DNA from: Methylovorus sp. MM2
Lineage (GTDB): Bacteria > Pseudomonadota > Gammaproteobacteria > Burkholderiales > Methylophilaceae
Reading direction: 5' to 3'
Assembly (NCBI RefSeq): GCF_001648895.1
Contig: NZ_LXUF01000001.1
Location: 1,471,726-1,535,725, forward strand
Length of the DNA: 64,000 bases
The notes under the pieces were generated by a model. That model searched no databases, was not told where the DNA came from, and saw only the letters and a list, made by a program, of their open reading frames with translations. The translations under genes were made by a program, and so were the position numbers. Below, one piece after another: positions 48,901 to 56,643 of the stretch (position 1 is the stretch's first letter; each line of letters starts with the position of its first letter).

Positions 48901-49320
48901 CTAAAACAATTCCAGATTACGACTCTTATCCCCTTTTCGCCGCACACTTCTGCTACGTTTCTTGATACCAGTCTTTTGCTGTGATTTAGGCATCAACTCA
49001 TCATCTGAAAAAAGTAATCCTTGTGGCGCAAACATATCTTGACTGCGCTGCGAGGCTTTAAATTTAGCCAGCAATCGGCAATCCACCGTGATATCAGCAA
49101 TTGGGACACAACAACATGGCAACACCTCATCGTATGCCACAAAGGCCAGCGGCGGCTCCAAGTAGCGAACATCTCCATGCAAGAGTTTGACACGACACAT
49201 GCCACAATAGCCGCTGCGGCACTGATATTCGACCTCGTGCCCGGTGCGCTCCAACCCATCCAGCAATGTCTCATGCAGCACTAGACGAAATGATTGATCT
49301 TGTGTGGTGATCTGACTCAA
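48901..49320 (-). CDS. YfaE-like 2Fe-2S ferredoxin with a basic C-terminal extension
   Basis: YfaE-type ferredoxins reduce the diferric centre of NrdB so that the tyrosyl radical can be formed or restored. The cluster ligands are CRSGYCGMC (near residue 34) plus the downstream Cys in VLPCCCVP. The first 90 residues match the family. About 50 extra residues follow, including a basic stretch ([15 protein letters not shown]), which E. coli YfaE lacks. The start is a TTG that overlaps the nrdB stop (TTGA), so it is coupled to nrdB. Confidence 0.9.
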
Positions 49321-50450
49321 AGTTCAAAACTGTTAAGATCATCCGCCGAGACTTCTGAATCGATCTGGCCGATAAGATAAGAGCTTAATTCAACTTCTTG
49401 CGGAGCCACTTGCACGGTATCAGAGGCCAACCATGTATTGATCCATGGGATAGGGTTACTTTTTGCATTCTCGAATGCGGGCGGTAGGCCGACTGATGCC
49501 ATGCGGTTGTTTGTGATGTACTCGACATACTGGCAAAGGATGTTCTTGTTCAAACCGATCATCGAACCACCTTTGAACAGGTAATCTGCCCAGCCCTTCT
49601 CTTGTTGAGCCGCTTCCTTGAACATATCACAACATTCTTGATGCAGCTCTTGGGCGATTACCGCAAACTCGGGGTCATCCTGCCCTGAACGCATGATATT
49701 CAGCATATGCTGCGTCCCTGTCAGGTGAAGCGCCTCATCACGCGCGATAAGTCGGATGATCTTGGCATTACCTTCCATCACCTTACGTTCAGCAAAGGCA
49801 AATGAGCAGGCAAAGCTGACATAGAAGCGAATCGCCTCAAGAATATTGATGCTCATGAGGCATAGATAGAGCTTCTTTTTCAGTTCACGCAGACGAATAG
49901 ATTCCAGCTTGCCATTGATGACATGCTCCCCCTCACCAAGCTGTGAATACAGCATCATGTAACGGATCAGATCATCGTAATAAGCGGAGATATCAGAAGC
50001 TCTCGCACAGATATTGTCATTGCGCACGATGTCATCGAATACCAGTGATGGATCATTGATGATGTTACGGATGATATGCGTGTAGGAGCGCGAGTGGATA
50101 GTCTCAGAGAATGCCCATGTCGCGATCCAAGTCTCCAATTCAGGCAATGAGGCTAACGGCAGCAATGCCACATTGGGACTACGGCCTTGAATAGAATCCA
50201 ACAACGTCTGATATTTCAGGTTACTGATAAAGATGTGCTTCTCATGCTCAGGCAAATTCTGGTAATCGATACGATCTTGCGAAACATCCACCTCTTCCGG
50301 ACGCCAAAAGAATGAAAGCTGCTTTTCGATCAAGCGTTCAAATACCGGGTATTTTTGCTGATCGTAGCGAGCGACGTTGACCGGCTGTCCGAAGAACATC
50401 GGCTCTTCCATCTGCTTGTTATCTACCTTAGAAAAGATGCTATAGGCCAT
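49317..50450 (-). CDS. nrdB: Class Ia ribonucleotide reductase beta subunit
   Basis: NrdB holds the diferric-tyrosyl radical cofactor. The 377-residue protein has [19 protein letters not shown], which contains two iron ligands and the radical Tyr, and the second ligand set with [14 protein letters not shown]. Further helices match the R2 fold, and the C-terminus SFEL-type tail should bind NrdA. The gene lies 110 bases after nrdA, separated by a strong hairpin, and just before the YfaE-like ferredoxin. Confidence 0.97.
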
Positions 50451-50560: not shown

Positions 50561-52864
50561 CTATATCTTGCAAGCACCACTTTCACAAGATGCGTCTTCC
50601 TCTTCGCTCTCGCCTGCGCCATCACGCGTGTTGTGGTAATACAGCGTCTTGATTCCCAACTTATATGCCTGCAACAAATCTTTCAGCAATTGCTTCATCG
50701 GCACCCGACCGCCTTCAAAACGCTTAGGATCGTAATTGGTATTGGTCGAGATCGATTGATCGACAAACTTTTGCATGATGCCTACCAGCTTTAGATACCC
50801 TTCGTTATCAGGCATTTGCCAAAGCAATTGGTATTGACTACGCAGACGATCGATTTCTGGCACGACTTGGCGCAAGATACCATCCTTGGATTGCTTCACA
50901 GACACCAAACCACGTGGCGGCTCGATGCCATTGGTCGCATTGGCAATCTGGCTGGAAGTTTCAGAAGGCATGAGCGCAGTTAGCGTAGAGTTGCGCAGAC
51001 CATGCGTTGTGATATCGCCACGAAGCGCTTCCCAATCCAATTGCAACGGCTCACTGCAAACTGCATCCAGATCGCGCTTGTAGGTATCGATCGGCAAAAT
51101 GCCCTGCGCATAGGTAGTTTCATGGAATGCTTTGCAAGGACCGAATTCGCGTGATAGCTGTACCGATGCTTTCAATAGGTAATATTGGATGGCTTCAAAA
51201 GTGCGATGCGTCAGCGATAGCGCTGCTTCATCAGTATAGCCAGTGCCGTTCTTTGCCAGATAATAAGCATAGTTAATGACACCGACCCCAAGCGAACGGC
51301 GTTTCTCAGTCGCATTCAAGGCTGCTTTTACAGGGTAATCCTGATATTCGAGTAACGCATCCAGTGAGCGAACGACCAACTCTGCCAGACCTTCAAGCTC
51401 ATCCAATGATTCCAATGCACCAAGATTGAAAGCTGAAAGTGTGCATAAAGCGATCTCGCCCTCTCCATCATTCAAATCGTTCAATGGGCTTGTTGGTAAG
51501 GCAATCTCCATACACAAATTAGATTGGCGTATTGGTGCTAAAGCAGGGTTAAATGGACTATGCGTATTGCAATGATCCACATTCTGTATGTAGATACGCC
51601 CAGTGCCAGCGCGCTCTTGCATCATCAATGAGAAGAGCTCGACAGCTGGCAACGTGCGCTTGCGAACACTGCCATCGGCTTCATATTGGGTATATAACCG
51701 CTCGAACTCATCCTGATCTGCAAAGAATGCGTCATACAAACCCGGCACATCATGTGGGGAGAACAAACTGATCTCTTGCCCCTTGATGAGTCGCTGATAC
51801 ATCAGACGGTTTATCTGTACGCCGTAATCAAGATGGCGCACACGGTTCTCTTCCACGCCACGGTTATTCTTGAGCACCAATAGGGTCTCGACCTCAAGAT
51901 GCCAGATCGGGTAGAACAAAGTCGCAGCACCACCGCGCACTCCACCTTGGGAGCAAGACTTGACGGCTGCCTGAAACAACTTGTAGAACGGCAAGCAGCC
52001 TGTGTGCTGCGCTTCACCATTGCGAATCTCGCTGCCGACTGCACGGATACGCCCCGCATTGATGCCGATACCAGCACGCTGGGATACGTAACGCACGATT
52101 GAGCTCGTCGTCGCATTGATACTATCCAGACTATCATCGCACTCGATCAATACGCATGAACTGAACTGACGGGTAGGTGTACGCACACCGGCCATGATTG
52201 GGGTTGGTAACGAAATCTTGAAGTTTGAAGCCGCGTCATAGAAGCGTTTGATCAGATCAAGGCGAGTACTACCTGTATATCTGGCAAATAGACACATGGC
52301 GACCAGCATGTAGAGGAATTGCGGACTCTCATACACTTTTTTGCTGACACGATTCTGTACCAGATACTTGCCTTCCAACTGCTTGACTGCTGCATAGGAA
52401 AACTTCATATCGCGCCAGTGATCGATATAGCCATTCAATTCATCAAACTCGGCCTTTGTATAATCGCGTAGCAGGTGCGCATCGTATTTACCAAGCGCTG
52501 TCAGATTGGTGACATGGTCAAATAGATGCGGTGGCTCGAACTGGCCATAAGCGATCTTGCGCAAGTGGAATATCGACAAGCGCGCCGCCATATACTGATA
52601 GTCTGGTGTTTCTTCCGAAATCAGATCCGCGGCTGATTTGATAATGGTTTCATGGATAGCATCCGTACGAATACCATCATAAAACTGAATATGTGAGCGT
52701 AACTCAACCTGAGAAACCGAGACATTATTCAGACCTTCTGCCGCCCACTCGATCACGCGGTGGATCTTGTCTAGATTGATAGGCTCAAGGCGGCCATCAC
52801 GCTTAGTGGCTTGCATAGATTCGTAATGAAGTTGGCGAGGCGTGTTTACTGTTGTGTCGTCCAT
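50561..52864 (-). CDS. nrdA: Class Ia ribonucleotide reductase alpha subunit
   Basis: NrdA reduces ribonucleoside diphosphates. The 767-residue protein has an N-terminal ATP-cone (KRDGRLEPINLDKIHRVIEWA-type region near residue 20), the first redox Cys in SSCVLIECDDSLD, the active-site NLCMEIALPT with the thiyl Cys, and the C-terminal shuttle pair CESGAC. I prefer the ATG at 52864, which has AAGGGAG seven bases upstream, over the in-frame ATG at 52903. The cobalamin riboswitch upstream on the same strand should repress it when B12 is present. Confidence 0.97.
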   Translation of the reverse strand: MDDTTVNTPRQLHYESMQATKRDGRLEPINLDKIHRVIEWAAEGLNNVSVSQVELRSHIQFYDGIRTDAIHETIIKSAADLISEETPDYQYMAARLSIFHLRKIAYGQFEPPHLFDHVTNLTALGKYDAHLLRDYTKAEFDELNGYIDHWRDMKFSYAAVKQLEGKYLVQNRVSKKVYESPQFLYMLVAMCLFARYTGSTRLDLIKRFYDAASNFKISLPTPIMAGVRTPTRQFSSCVLIECDDSLDSINATTSSIVRYVSQRAGIGINAGRIRAVGSEIRNGEAQHTGCLPFYKLFQAAVKSCSQGGVRGGAATLFYPIWHLEVETLLVLKNNRGVEENRVRHLDYGVQINRLMYQRLIKGQEISLFSPHDVPGLYDAFFADQDEFERLYTQYEADGSVRKRTLPAVELFSLMMQERAGTGRIYIQNVDHCNTHSPFNPALAPIRQSNLCMEIALPTSPLNDLNDGEGEIALCTLSAFNLGALESLDELEGLAELVVRSLDALLEYQDYPVKAALNATEKRRSLGVGVINYAYYLAKNGTGYTDEAALSLTHRTFEAIQYYLLKASVQLSREFGPCKAFHETTYAQGILPIDTYKRDLDAVCSEPLQLDWEALRGDITTHGLRNSTLTALMPSETSSQIANATNGIEPPRGLVSVKQSKDGILRQVVPEIDRLRSQYQLLWQMPDNEGYLKLVGIMQKFVDQSISTNTNYDPKRFEGGRVPMKQLLKDLLQAYKLGIKTLYYHNTRDGAGESEEEDASCESGACKI

Positions 52865-53034
52865 GATGGCTCCCTTATGCGAGCGCGGGGATGTCCAGAC
52901 CATATCTTAAGTACAGTACAGCAAGATAAATAACTTGCAACACGCACCAGCCAATACGGACAAGCAATGAAGAAAACGCAAAGCGCGTTCTGTTCTGCCG
53001 AGGTCACCCCGCCTCAAACGTTACGAAAAATATC

Positions 53035-53218
53035 CACGGCAGGTCTCCTGGCTTTCAGCTTCACTCAGACAGCCTTCCCGGATATATCCAGTGGCATGTT
53101 GCCCGAGCGACCAGTCCTAAAACTGGTGGCTGATTACAGTTGCGGGGGCAGCCCCGGCTTTAGAATATTCATCTTTTTGAATACCCTTTACCGGATTCCC
53201 TTTTAACTCACATTTAGA
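53035..53218 (-). ncRNA. Cobalamin riboswitch of the nrdA-nrdB operon
   Basis: All core boxes are in order on the minus strand: GTTAAAAGGGAATCCGGT, GCTGCCCCCGCAACTGTAA, GCCACTGG, GGGAAGGC and the B12 box AGCCAGGAGACCTGCC (53053-53038). This match is close to the AdoCbl class consensus. It lies just downstream of the promoter and 170 bases before nrdA. B12 binding should turn off the B12-independent reductase, which implies a B12-dependent class II reductase (NrdJ) elsewhere in the genome. Confidence 0.95.
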
Positions 53219-53245
53219 AATGTCTGTGAGGACCGTAGTGGCTCC

Positions 53246-53275
53246 ACTATATCTCAGCGGGATATTATTTTGCAA
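53246..53275 (-). promoter_or_regulatory. Sigma-70 promoter of the nrd operon
   Basis: On the minus strand TTGCAA (53275-53270) and TATAGT (53251-53246) are 18 bases apart. Transcription would begin near 53239, about 20 bases before the riboswitch core. Confidence 0.65.
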
Positions 53276-53299
53276 TAGAGATTTTTGATAAAAACCACA

Positions 53300-53335
53300 A
53301 TAGGTTGATTTTTTTAAAATAAAAAATCAACCTAT
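53300..53335. terminator. Terminator-like hairpin after metE
   Basis: ATAGGTTGATTTTTT and AAAAAATCAACCTAT form a perfect 15-bp stem with a six-base loop. It lies 26 bases past the metE stop. The stem is A+T-rich and followed by mixed sequence, but its position supports a metE terminator. Confidence 0.65.
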
Positions 53336-53360: not shown

Positions 53361-55634
53361 CTACTGCTGCAAGCTTGCGCGCAGGTTTCTTGCTACCTGA
53401 ACCATGTTCTGCAATGCGGTAACAGTTTCCGGCCAAGCTCGGGTTTTTAAGCCGCAATCCGGATTGATCCACAAACGCTCGACAGGAATGACTTCCATCG
53501 CACGCAGCATGAGTTTTTCCATCGCTTCGACAGTAGGTACTCTTGGCGAATGGATATCATAGACACCCGGCCCTATCTCATTTGGATATTCGAACTCCCC
53601 GAATCCATCCAGCAATTCCATCGCTGATCGTGATGTCTCGATGGTGATGACATCTGCATCCATTGCAGCGATAGATGGCAGAATATCGTTGAATTCCGAA
53701 TAACACATATGCGTGTGTATCTGCGTTGCATCATTCGCCACGCTTGCTGACAGCTTAAATGCTCGAACCGCCCAGGCAAGGTAGTGTGCCCAATTGGCTT
53801 TTTGCAAAGGTAAGCCCTCACGAAATGCCGGCTCATCGATTTGGATGACAGAGATACCCGCTTTCTCAAGATCAGCAACCTCGTCACGTATCGCCAAAGC
53901 TAACTGCAGAGCAGTAGTTTCACGTAGCTGATCGTTACGCACGAATGACCATTGCAACATCGTCACGGGACCAGTAAGCATACCTTTCACAGGCTTTTGT
54001 GTAAGAGACTGCGCATAGGTCGTCGCTTCTACCGTCATTGGCAATGGTCTGTAGACATCGCCATAGATGACGGGCGGCTTCACGCAACGGGAACCATAAC
54101 TTTGCACCCAGCCATTTTGGGTAAATGCATAGCCAGCAAGTTGCTCGCCGAAATACTCCACCATGTCATTGCGCTCCGCCTCGCCATGTACCAATACATC
54201 TAGACCCAAAAACTCCTGTTGCTTGATGGCATGACGGATATTCGCTTGCATATCAGATATATACTGCACCTCATTCAATTCACCTCTCTTAAACGCGGCA
54301 CGGCTGGCACGTATCTCAGCCGTCTGCGGGAATGAACCTATCGTCGTCGTGGGCAATAATGGCAGCTTAAGTTCTGCCTGCTGGATGACTCGCCTGGCTG
54401 CAAAAGGACTTTGGCGATCCGCATCGACTTCATGCAGTTTTTCTAAACGCTTGCTGACTTCACTGGCGTGCACCCGACTAGACGTCGAACGGGTTACCGC
54501 TGCATGATAAGATTGCGATAACGCATCAGAAACAGCATCTCTACCCTCATCTAACGCTTTCACCAATACTTGCAGCTCGATCAACTTTTCATCTGCGAAT
54601 GCAAGCCATGACTTGATTTCACTATCCAGCTTGGTCTCATGATCAAGCGTCACTGGCACATGCAATAGCGAACATGATGGGGCGATCCATAAACGATCAC
54701 CCAGCAATGCCGATACCGGCTCTAAAATATCTAAAGTCTCATTCAGGTTATTGCGCCAAATGTTACGTCCATCGACTACGCCAGCAGATAATACCCAGTG
54801 TGACGGTAATGCATGGAGCCATGGCTTCAGCTGCTCAGGAGCACGTACAAGATCGATATGGATGCCATCCACAGGCAAGCTTATGATGCTGGGTATATAG
54901 CGCGCCACATGATCAAAATAAGTCGCTAGCAATAACTTGGGGCGGTCATCACGAATGCGTGCGTAAGCATGCTCAAACGCCTCTAGCCACTGCGCATTCA
55001 GATCTAACGTCAGAATAGGTTCATCTATCTGCACCCACTCGATACCACGATATTTAAGCTCTGCCAACAATGCGGCATATTGCGCGCACAATGATGGGAG
55101 AAGGCTTACTCGATCAAAACCCTCTGCGCGACTTTTGCTCAGATACAGATAAGATACCGGACCAAGCAAAGTGGGCTTAACCGATGATCCAGTTGCCAGT
55201 GCCTCATCCACCTGAACCAGCAGTTCATGTGCATTGGCAGAGAATGCGGTCTCAGGGCCAAGCTCGGGCACAAGATAATGATAATTGGTATCGAACCACT
55301 TGGTCATTTCACTGGCAGGCTGTGATGCATTGCCACGCGCCAGAGAAAAATAATCTGTAGGTGCCAATACTTTACCGGCCAAGCCAAAACGCGCTGGGGC
55401 AGCGCCGAATAACACCGTGTGATCAAGCACATGATCATAGTAAGAAAAATCGCCAACGCTCACGAATGCCAGACCGGCGCTTTCTTGTTTTTGCCAATTA
55501 AGGTGACGAAGTTGGCTGCCAGTAGCTTCAAGCTCCTGAATACTGCTATTGCCTTGCCAGAATGACTCTAGCGCGAACTTCAGCTCACGTTTTGCGCCTA
55601 TGCGCGGATAACCAAGAATATGTGCGGTTGTCAT
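53361..55634 (-). CDS. metE: Cobalamin-independent methionine synthase MetE
   Basis: MetE transfers the methyl of 5-methyltetrahydropteroyltri-L-glutamate to homocysteine without B12. The 757-residue protein is full length: HILGYPRIGAKRELKFALE at the start, TTTIGSFPQTAEIRASRA at the second domain, QIDEPAFREGLPL, and the zinc ligands in THMCYSEFNDI and NPDCGLKTR. It is divergent from metR and shows no riboswitch of its own. Control is probably through MetR and homocysteine. Confidence 0.98.
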   Translation of the reverse strand: MTTAHILGYPRIGAKRELKFALESFWQGNSSIQELEATGSQLRHLNWQKQESAGLAFVSVGDFSYYDHVLDHTVLFGAAPARFGLAGKVLAPTDYFSLARGNASQPASEMTKWFDTNYHYLVPELGPETAFSANAHELLVQVDEALATGSSVKPTLLGPVSYLYLSKSRAEGFDRVSLLPSLCAQYAALLAELKYRGIEWVQIDEPILTLDLNAQWLEAFEHAYARIRDDRPKLLLATYFDHVARYIPSIISLPVDGIHIDLVRAPEQLKPWLHALPSHWVLSAGVVDGRNIWRNNLNETLDILEPVSALLGDRLWIAPSCSLLHVPVTLDHETKLDSEIKSWLAFADEKLIELQVLVKALDEGRDAVSDALSQSYHAAVTRSTSSRVHASEVSKRLEKLHEVDADRQSPFAARRVIQQAELKLPLLPTTTIGSFPQTAEIRASRAAFKRGELNEVQYISDMQANIRHAIKQQEFLGLDVLVHGEAERNDMVEYFGEQLAGYAFTQNGWVQSYGSRCVKPPVIYGDVYRPLPMTVEATTYAQSLTQKPVKGMLTGPVTMLQWSFVRNDQLRETTALQLALAIRDEVADLEKAGISVIQIDEPAFREGLPLQKANWAHYLAWAVRAFKLSASVANDATQIHTHMCYSEFNDILPSIAAMDADVITIETSRSAMELLDGFGEFEYPNEIGPGVYDIHSPRVPTVEAMEKLMLRAMEVIPVERLWINPDCGLKTRAWPETVTALQNMVQVARNLRASLQQ

Positions 55635-55731: not shown

Positions 55732-56643
55732 ATGATAGAAATCCGGCACCTAAAATCATTCAAGGCCATTTCAGAAAGTGGAAAGCTCGCGCTTGCGGCA
55801 GAGCGCGTACACCTGACACAATCCGCACTCTCCCACCAGATACGTGCTGTTGAAGAATATTACGACATCACCTTATTTCAGCGCACGGCTCATGGCTTAC
55901 GCTTCACGCCTGCTGGTGAGCGACTATTAAAACTAGCCGATATCGTGCTGGAAGCGACAGCACACGCTGAGCGTGATTTGGAACGGCTCAAGCTAGATCA
56001 ATCAGGCGAATTGCGTATCGTGCTGGAATGCCATACCTGTTTTGATTGGCTGACCCCGGTAATGGATCTATTTCGGCGTGCATGGCCAGAAGTAGAATTG
56101 GATCTCGTGGCCGGGTTCCACAGTGACCCTTGGAATCTGATCAAAGAGGGTAAGGCAGATTTTGTCATTGGCGGCTTGCCAAGCGCCTCCAAACATCTGC
56201 AACACACGCCTTTATTTAAATTCGAGATACTGGCTGTGCTTCCGCCAGACCATCCATTGCATAACAAACCTTATTTGGTACCAGAAGATTTTAATCATCA
56301 GACCTTGATCACTTATCCAGTACCCGAAGAGCGCATCGACCTTGTGCGGGAGTTGCTCGCTCCTGCGCATATCAAGTTTGAACGTCGCACCGCTGAATTA
56401 ACGGTCGCCATCATGCAGTTAGTCGCCAGCCGTCGCGGACTTGCGGCATTGCCAAGCTGGGGATTGCAGAATTACATCGAGCATGAATATGTGATCGGCA
56501 AACCTATTACGAAGAAAGGCTTGTGGTCTGAATTACATGCCGCGGGCAAGGCTGAAGTGATGGCGAAACCTTATGCTGTCGATCTCGTGCGTATCATTCG
56601 CGAAGCATGTTCAGAAAAGCTAGATGGGATTAAGCTGATCTGA
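55732..56643 (+). CDS. metR: LysR-type regulator MetR
   Basis: The 303-residue regulator begins MIEIRHLKSFKAISESGKLA with helix-turn-helix ERVHLTQSALSHQIRAVE, then an effector domain (about 90-295) with LVAGFHSDPWNLIKEGKADFV and ASRRGLAALPSWGL. The match to MetR is close and its position divergent from metE confirms it. Homocysteine is the usual co-effector. It converges on the TPR-oxygenase gene, 36 bases away. Confidence 0.96.
   Translation: MIEIRHLKSFKAISESGKLALAAERVHLTQSALSHQIRAVEEYYDITLFQRTAHGLRFTPAGERLLKLADIVLEATAHAERDLERLKLDQSGELRIVLECHTCFDWLTPVMDLFRRAWPEVELDLVAGFHSDPWNLIKEGKADFVIGGLPSASKHLQHTPLFKFEILAVLPPDHPLHNKPYLVPEDFNHQTLITYPVPEERIDLVRELLAPAHIKFERRTAELTVAIMQLVASRRGLAALPSWGLQNYIEHEYVIGKPITKKGLWSELHAAGKAEVMAKPYAVDLVRIIREACSEKLDGIKLI

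Follow-up and report, generated by a model that had tools for sequence, protein, structure and literature searches.

The window analysed here is a 64-kb stretch (64,000 nucleotides) of the Methylovorus sp. MM2 genome; coordinates are positions in it unless another locus is named. Its minus strand carries the operon nrdA-nrdB-yfaE. nrdA (50561–52864) encodes the 767-residue large subunit of a ribonucleotide reductase (RNR) and matches NF006578 at 1487.8 bits, as well as PF02867, PF00317, and PF03477. nrdB (49317–50450) encodes the 377-residue small subunit (NF006576, 726.6 bits), and the third gene (48901–49320) a yfaE-like ferredoxin of class I RNR maintenance (NF007985, 97.3 bits against a cut-off of 75). 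All three exceed the curated NCBIfam cut-offs, and the operon is thus assigned to class Ia. By NrdA similarity, the nearest named genomes are those of Methylophilus and Methylobacillus, at 88%.

Upstream of nrdA, on the same strand, lies a cobalamin riboswitch aptamer (RF00174; 53021–53252). In a cmscan search of the whole window, RF00174 is the single Rfam family above gathering score, the cut-off being 31.5 bits. The match scores 105.1 bits and covers the model end to end, positions 1–189; its E-value of 2.8e-25 rules out a chance match. The aptamer ends 156 nt before the nrdA start codon, the A of the ATG being bp 52864. An earlier note, made from the sequence alone, had placed a cobalamin aptamer before nrdA at 52865–53260. 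The Rfam search bears this out, and the span is that of the aptamer plus the leader as far as the start codon.

Beyond the aptamer is metE, for the B12-independent methionine synthase (53361–55634, minus strand; TIGR01371, 1075.6 bits, above cut-off). It ends 108 nt from the aptamer. Because metE lies on the upstream side of the aptamer and shares its strand, it was set aside as the target; that is, the aptamer precedes nrdA and not metE, as had been claimed. No RF00174 match of metE's own was found by cmscan in the 64-kb window. Back to back with metE, in divergon orientation, is a LysR regulator gene (55732–56643, plus strand). It is called metR-like here: MetR (PRK15421) is its best NCBIfam match, although the score of 228.6 bits is below the cut-off of 382. 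The arrangement, taken with what PMC4239095 describes, suggests that MetR may control metE. Since metE lacks an RF00174 match and is back to back with the metR-like gene, different regulators for nrdA and metE are plausible. The earlier claim was that the B12-free alternatives cluster but use different regulators: the clustering stands, with nrdA beside metE, and the second part is rated as plausible only.

The host genome (2.42 Mb, 22 contigs, completeness 100) also encodes B12-dependent counterparts. The RNR barrel domain occurs in two genes, the window's nrdA and a gene for a 717-residue NrdJ (TIGR02504, NrdJ_Z; 577.7 bits against a cut-off of 399.95). NrdJ is accompanied by a 235-residue TSCPD partner, making it a split class II enzyme. 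The earlier note had predicted a B12-dependent NrdJ elsewhere, to be sought together with metH, and had named a lack of nrdJ as evidence against its reading; both genes are present, NrdJ in the form of this gene pair. An orphan riboswitch without NrdJ was accordingly set aside. nrdR is present as well. The genome has two RF00174 copies, the second of which precedes the gene of a TonB receptor. The receptor scores 114.4 bits with the B12-receptor model TIGR01779, far under the cut-off of 599.7, and the genes after it, named from their translations, look like B12 salvage genes.

The arrangement in the family and the expression platform

The family was sampled with 150 genomes; RF00174 is matched in 141 of them and PF02867 in 143. 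NrdA kinds were sorted by score and frame length from the PF02867 matches listed. Among those matches, from which low-scoring or broken NrdA genes may be absent, a full-length NrdA is found in at least 52 of the 150 genomes. Twenty-two of these are of a ~770-residue kind, the window's, with frames of 759–839 aa (706 aa in G070) and PF02867 scores of 440–456 bits. The other 30 are of a ~950-residue kind (937–1068 aa; 621–635 bits). NrdJ was told apart by its matched span (profile positions 3–522) and frame length. It accompanies NrdA in 51 genomes: 42 were identified from the listed PF02867 matches and nine by a search with the host genome's NrdJ, and in two of the 51 (G063 and G072) NrdJ is matched only in pieces.

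RF00174 lies directly upstream of nrdA in all 51 NrdA genomes that also have NrdJ. For 41 of the 52 NrdA genomes, its place beside nrdA was compared by eye from the places listed, and the leaders read afterwards agree. For the other 11, the upstream DNA was run through cmscan; 10 have RF00174, and G042 does not. metE is upstream of the riboswitch in at least 11 of 25 fetched loci, with either NrdA kind; this is a lower bound, as the fetched loci reach ~3 kb upstream.

Several genomes of the sample depart from the common form. The nrdA aptamer is 411 nt long (61.3 bits) at L128 1267–1677 (G010:C11) and at L011 5437–5847; this long form has an insert ahead of the B12 box, and the sisters' aptamers are about 220–225 nt. 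G014 and G044 (genus code g15) have no PF02867 match, i.e., no class I or class II large RNR subunit was seen in that search; G014 is 99% complete in 10 contigs. G119 has a third RNR large-subunit match beyond NrdA and NrdJ (C1:1576082–1577557, in a 1018-residue frame). The nrdA of G070 (L129 3669–4801, G070:C20) is matched as two segments whose frames differ, the break falling near codon 64, which may reflect a frameshift or an error in sequencing.

The window's aptamer is immediately followed by a P13/L13 element (GUUUGAGGCGGGGUGACCUCGGC; 52997–53019, minus strand), with L13, GCGGGG, at 53007–53012. The family form, GUUUGAGGCGGGGUGUCCUCGGC, directly follows the aptamer in the nrdA leaders, exactly in 47 of the 51 and with one mismatch in four, the window among these. 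Across the 51 leaders the mean pairwise identity is 0.97 for the 28 nt at P13/L13 and 0.31 for the next 28 nt. All 17 other family riboswitches examined have 8–13 mismatches to the 23-nt core (10 and 12 in L109 and L110). The distance from the P13 loop to the start codon is 149 nt in the window, 118–195 nt in 49 of the 50 others, and 299 nt in one. L13 is complementary to CCCCGC in loop L5 of the window's aptamer (53142–53147, minus strand), a segment located from the sequence and the cmscan alignment. By analogy with the known L5–L13 architecture (PMC10653944), this L5 segment is the predicted kissing partner of L13. The presence of the P13/L13 element after 51 nrdA aptamers points to translational control by the known L5–L13 kissing loop.

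The proposed expression platform lies next to the start codon. The Shine-Dalgarno (SD) sequence GGGAG (52870–52874, minus strand) and a short anti-SD arm, GCUC (52881–52884), were read from the sequence and pair in the folds. Immediately 5′ of the arm is a second CCCCGC (52885–52890), also complementary to L13, which is proposed to form the ON pairing. Computed with the P13 strand in its family form, one letter off the window's, the duplex comes to −25.7 kcal/mol; none of 17 background windows and none of 100 shuffles is as good. In the 51 leaders, the SD-side segment complementary to the P13 strand overlaps or abuts the anti-SD arm, and the duplex averages −15.8; background windows average −10.4 and shuffles −11.7. 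No background window equals the duplex in 33 of the 51, and the shuffles that equal it make up a median share of 0.09. Four leaders (L133, L142, L143, and L146) have poor L13 complementarity, 44–87% of shuffles being as good.

A mechanism can be proposed in which bound B12 would lead L5 of the aptamer to kiss L13, so that the P13 hairpin is held. With P13 held, the local anti-SD arm would close the nrdA ribosome-binding site and switch nrdA off, and NrdJ would then make deoxyribonucleotides in place of NrdAB. In the absence of B12, the GCGGGG strand of P13 would instead pair beside the anti-SD arm, i.e., with CCCCGC in the window, leaving the SD open for NrdAB to be made. All of these steps beyond the aptamer and P13 we infer.

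The predicted effect of P13 on the SD can be followed in the folds. Blocking P13 takes predicted SD accessibility from 0.34 to 0.15 for leaders of the ~770 kind, with a decrease in 16 of 21 and an increase in one. For the ~950 kind the values are 0.29 before and 0.20 after, with a decrease in 14 of 30 and an increase in five. The mean change is −0.13, vs. −0.03 when control stretches are blocked. Taking all leaders together, the shift is as predicted in 30 of 51 and opposite in six. In the window itself it is small, 0.13 to 0.08, and one of seven control stretches does as much. The fold of the whole leader has a z of −3.08, with none of 100 shuffles as good; for the part from the aptamer end to the start codon, z is −1.13, and 31 of 200 shuffles are as good. 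A pairing of the P1 3′ strand (CUGCCGUGG) with CCUCGGCAG after P13 was tried as an alternative. It fits the window, less so relatives with CUACCG or CGACCG, and was rejected; it is possible as an extra pairing at most.

The 156-nt leader might instead act by attenuating transcription, through an intrinsic or a Rho-dependent terminator, and not by closing the ribosome-binding site. Streptomyces nrdABS is reported, in PMC4991794, to be controlled transcriptionally; the window folds have a hairpin (about 52969–52995) after P13; and coupled Rho effects would be invisible to the tools used. Against attenuation, the consensus scan of the window found no terminator-like site downstream of the aptamer. 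The SD-proximal segment is among the leader parts that are conserved within each enzyme kind, and on average the predicted accessibility of the SD drops further when P13 is blocked than when controls are. We regard attenuation as a rather doubtful alternative and continue with closing of the ribosome-binding site.

A species without NrdJ and a candidate NrdR layer

G042 is the single informative genome for the question of what happens to the riboswitch where NrdJ is absent. The sole match to the host NrdJ in G042 is its own NrdA (2.1e-7); this genome is 99% complete in 20 contigs, so that an nrdJ could in principle sit in a gap. The DNA upstream of its nrdA has no cobalamin match, even in a permissive search. 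G042 keeps an RF00174 copy elsewhere, and metH. In the NrdA tree it is placed among riboswitch-bearing relatives with support 82/93 (3 of the 22 inner branches are starred).

The G042 nrdA leader is similar to those of sister species in three places: its 5′ end, the surroundings of P13, and the SD. It lacks both the conserved L5 block and the B12 box. L13 reads GCAAGG, and the SD-side segment reads CCUUGC. That is, the proposed ON pairing appears intact and the kissing partner appears lost, which fits a switch frozen ON. The aptamer thus seems to have decayed in the sole species of this sample where B12 cannot replace NrdAB. The coincidence of riboswitch absence with NrdJ absence would count as one event.

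Two further features of the G042 locus are recorded. metE (L119 2338–3438, G042:C16) is shortened to a 366-residue N-terminal frame, with metH kept, and a fluoride riboswitch (RF01734, 51.8 bits) at L119 567–647 precedes a crcB-like frame, as read from the sequence.

Signals for transcription initiation lie at the 5′ end of the leader. A candidate σ70 promoter, TTGCAA-18-TATAGT (53246–53275, minus strand), overlaps the 5′ end of the aptamer; the consensus scan found 2 promoter-like sites vs. 1.0 expected. In the family, a −10-like hexamer is found near the aptamer start in 48 of the 51 leaders, preceded in 32 by a −35 with at least 4 of 6 letters. Between metE and the riboswitch, the same scan found a terminator-like, 15-bp A+T-rich hairpin (53300–53335, minus strand), the one such site vs. 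0.6 expected. With this hairpin and the candidate promoter in the metE–aptamer interval, nrdA could well be transcribed on its own, though both signals are consensus matches in near-chance numbers.

NrdR sites were scored against the NrdR-box consensus. The window has a weak, degenerate site at 53295–53310 (minus strand), matching 11 of 16 letters, and 28.5% of shuffles are as good. In the relatives, the best site before the riboswitch matches 12 or more of the 16 letters in 48 of 51 leaders; as a rule, a second and weaker one lies ~32 nt away near the −10 region. The NrdR layer thus looks eroded in the window. In P. aeruginosa, two NrdR boxes per RNR promoter are described, one overlapping the −10 (PMC4409342).

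It is very improbable that the aptamer is no longer, or only weakly, regulatory and that nrdA is mainly under NrdR at the promoter: nrdR and the relatives' boxes speak for this, but the aptamer and P13 are conserved in the 51 NrdJ genomes and appear decayed in the one without NrdJ, and the weak element in the window is the NrdR-like box (p 0.285).

Two NrdA kinds behind one leader

The riboswitch leader precedes two rather different enzymes. NrdA of the ~770 kind and of the ~950 kind are 27–29% identical (five ~950-kind loci compared), and the NrdBs are 25% identical in the one pair compared. In the ~950-kind operon examined, nrdB follows nrdA, and then no same-strand frame of at least 150 aa is found in the stretch listed, a limit under which a short ferredoxin falls.

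The window's NrdA begins MDDTTVNTPRQLH-YESMQATKRDGR. Its first 13 codons, MDDTTVNTPRQLH (52826–52864, minus strand), open with MDD and are proposed to be a remnant of the start of a ~950-kind nrdA. The ~950-kind proteins start with MDD in 29 of 30 cases and with MND in one. The search pattern used to place these starts itself spells MDD, and the match is of three residues; each of the 30 start codons begins an open frame that runs into the domain, and each follows an SD-like run. The proteins behind the other ~770-kind riboswitch leaders start M[ST][KQ]Y in 20 of 20 cases, none with MDD, and that of G042 does likewise. MDD before the conserved TKR was found in none of the 36 named loci examined (of 80). 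G002 and G024 have, in their ~950-kind gene, the letters ATGGACGACAC in common with the window. At genus level, a search turned up no further genome from the window's genus.

In the leader tree, the window's leader joins the ~950-kind leaders of genus code g17 with support 96/95, a join that the tree flags as a long-branch join, often false. AU tests gave p-AU 0.056 for all ~770-kind leaders as one clade; 0.036 for the window with the g11 leaders, a group named after the tree was seen; and 0.353 for all g19 leaders as one clade. The discordance of leader and enzyme suggested by the leader tree is thus borderline.

The riboswitch leader before nrdA would be a single old lineage in the family. 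One leader lineage before two RNR operons, together with the MDD start of the window's NrdA, suggests that an enzyme was swapped behind a resident riboswitch. In the window's ancestor, a ~770-kind nrdAB-yfaE would have replaced a ~950-kind nrdAB behind the leader, the old start codons being left in place. More generally, we lean towards a view of the leader as a fixed socket for exchanged class I RNR operons, with the window's junction in the first nrdA codons, and with decay of the aptamer after nrdJ loss, a compensating change keeping the ON pairing.

The same pattern could have arisen with no in-place swap, if whole riboswitch-operon cassettes moved between species or if the P13 element converged. 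RNR genes are reported to move horizontally (PMC3019208), and the AU test does not firmly reject a single clade of ~770-kind leaders (p 0.056) or of g19 leaders (p 0.353). Convergence is unlikely, as the 23-nt core is common to both kinds and is not found in any of the 17 other family riboswitches. metE precedes the riboswitch with either NrdA kind, and the window's ~770-kind NrdA bears the ~950-kind start. Moreover, cassette transfer too requires that one leader was joined to two operons at some time. We consider transfer or convergence improbable, though by no means negligible, and retain the in-place swap behind the resident leader.

Known systems and the meaning of the switch

The arrangement was also sought in the order, in a sample of 75 genomes, of which 72 do not belong to the family; RF00174 scoring covered no more than 29 candidate places in each genome, and adjacency was judged by eye from two listings. 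Among the matches listed, at least one of the 72 non-family genomes, G189, has RF00174 no further than 2.5 kb upstream of its class I nrdA. This genome also has a second PF02867 gene (719-residue frame, with the NrdJ span), and L13 in its leader is similar. Of the 72, 37 have at least two separate PF02867 loci, counted irrespective of class. With the riboswitch seen in at least one of 72, a second RNR alone would not be sufficient for it.

B12 regulons are reportedly the subject of a study by Rodionov in 2003. Among the members of cobalamin regulons, isozymes of B12-dependent enzymes form a recognised class (PMC3766115). The earlier note stated that riboswitch control of reductase genes is known in some bacteria, and this is so for Streptomyces coelicolor nrdABS (PMC4991794). 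As here, a cobalamin riboswitch precedes a class Ia RNR operon in a genome that also has a class II NrdJ. That source describes transcriptional control in an actinobacterium, whereas the control predicted here is translational, in the Methylophilaceae, and acts on an E. coli-type nrdAB-yfaE operon through a conserved P13 element.

For E. coli btuB and for env8, the L5–L13 kissing loop is described as stabilising P13 and promoting a hairpin at the ribosome-binding site (PMC10653944). The window's L13 is likewise complementary to L5; unlike in btuB and env8, the target is a ribonucleotide reductase, and the P13 loop lies well before the start codon, at the distance given above. Silencing of a B12-free isozyme is familiar from metE cobalamin riboswitches, e.g., that of Priestia megaterium (PMC10653944 and PMC9600662); here, metE adjoins the riboswitch upstream, and the riboswitch faces nrdA. 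P. aeruginosa, like the Methylovorus host, has class Ia NrdAB and a split class II NrdJab in one genome; B12 has a small effect on its nrd expression, which PMC5962746 describes as not depending on regulation by a B12 riboswitch. The OM43 host H5P1 is reported to have just one cobalamin riboswitch, located before btuB (PMC9004378). Among the titles and abstract starts listed in our literature search, there was no report of an nrdA riboswitch in the Methylophilaceae.

The sequences show the aptamer and its position, the operon behind it, a B12-dependent NrdJ elsewhere in the genome, and the conservation of this arrangement in the family. Taken jointly with the mechanism at the ribosome-binding site and the operon replacement that we infer, a B12 OFF riboswitch on class Ia nrdA-nrdB-yfaE is, on the sequence evidence, a reading in which we have high confidence. 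The control logic is already known; what the family would add is a comparative test of unusual clarity and, possibly, an enzyme swap. The predicted circuit becomes testable in growable methylotrophs, with a natural control in the species that lost NrdJ and whose switch appears decayed. If the swap is true, a riboswitch can outlive its gene, passing the same regulation to the replacement enzyme.
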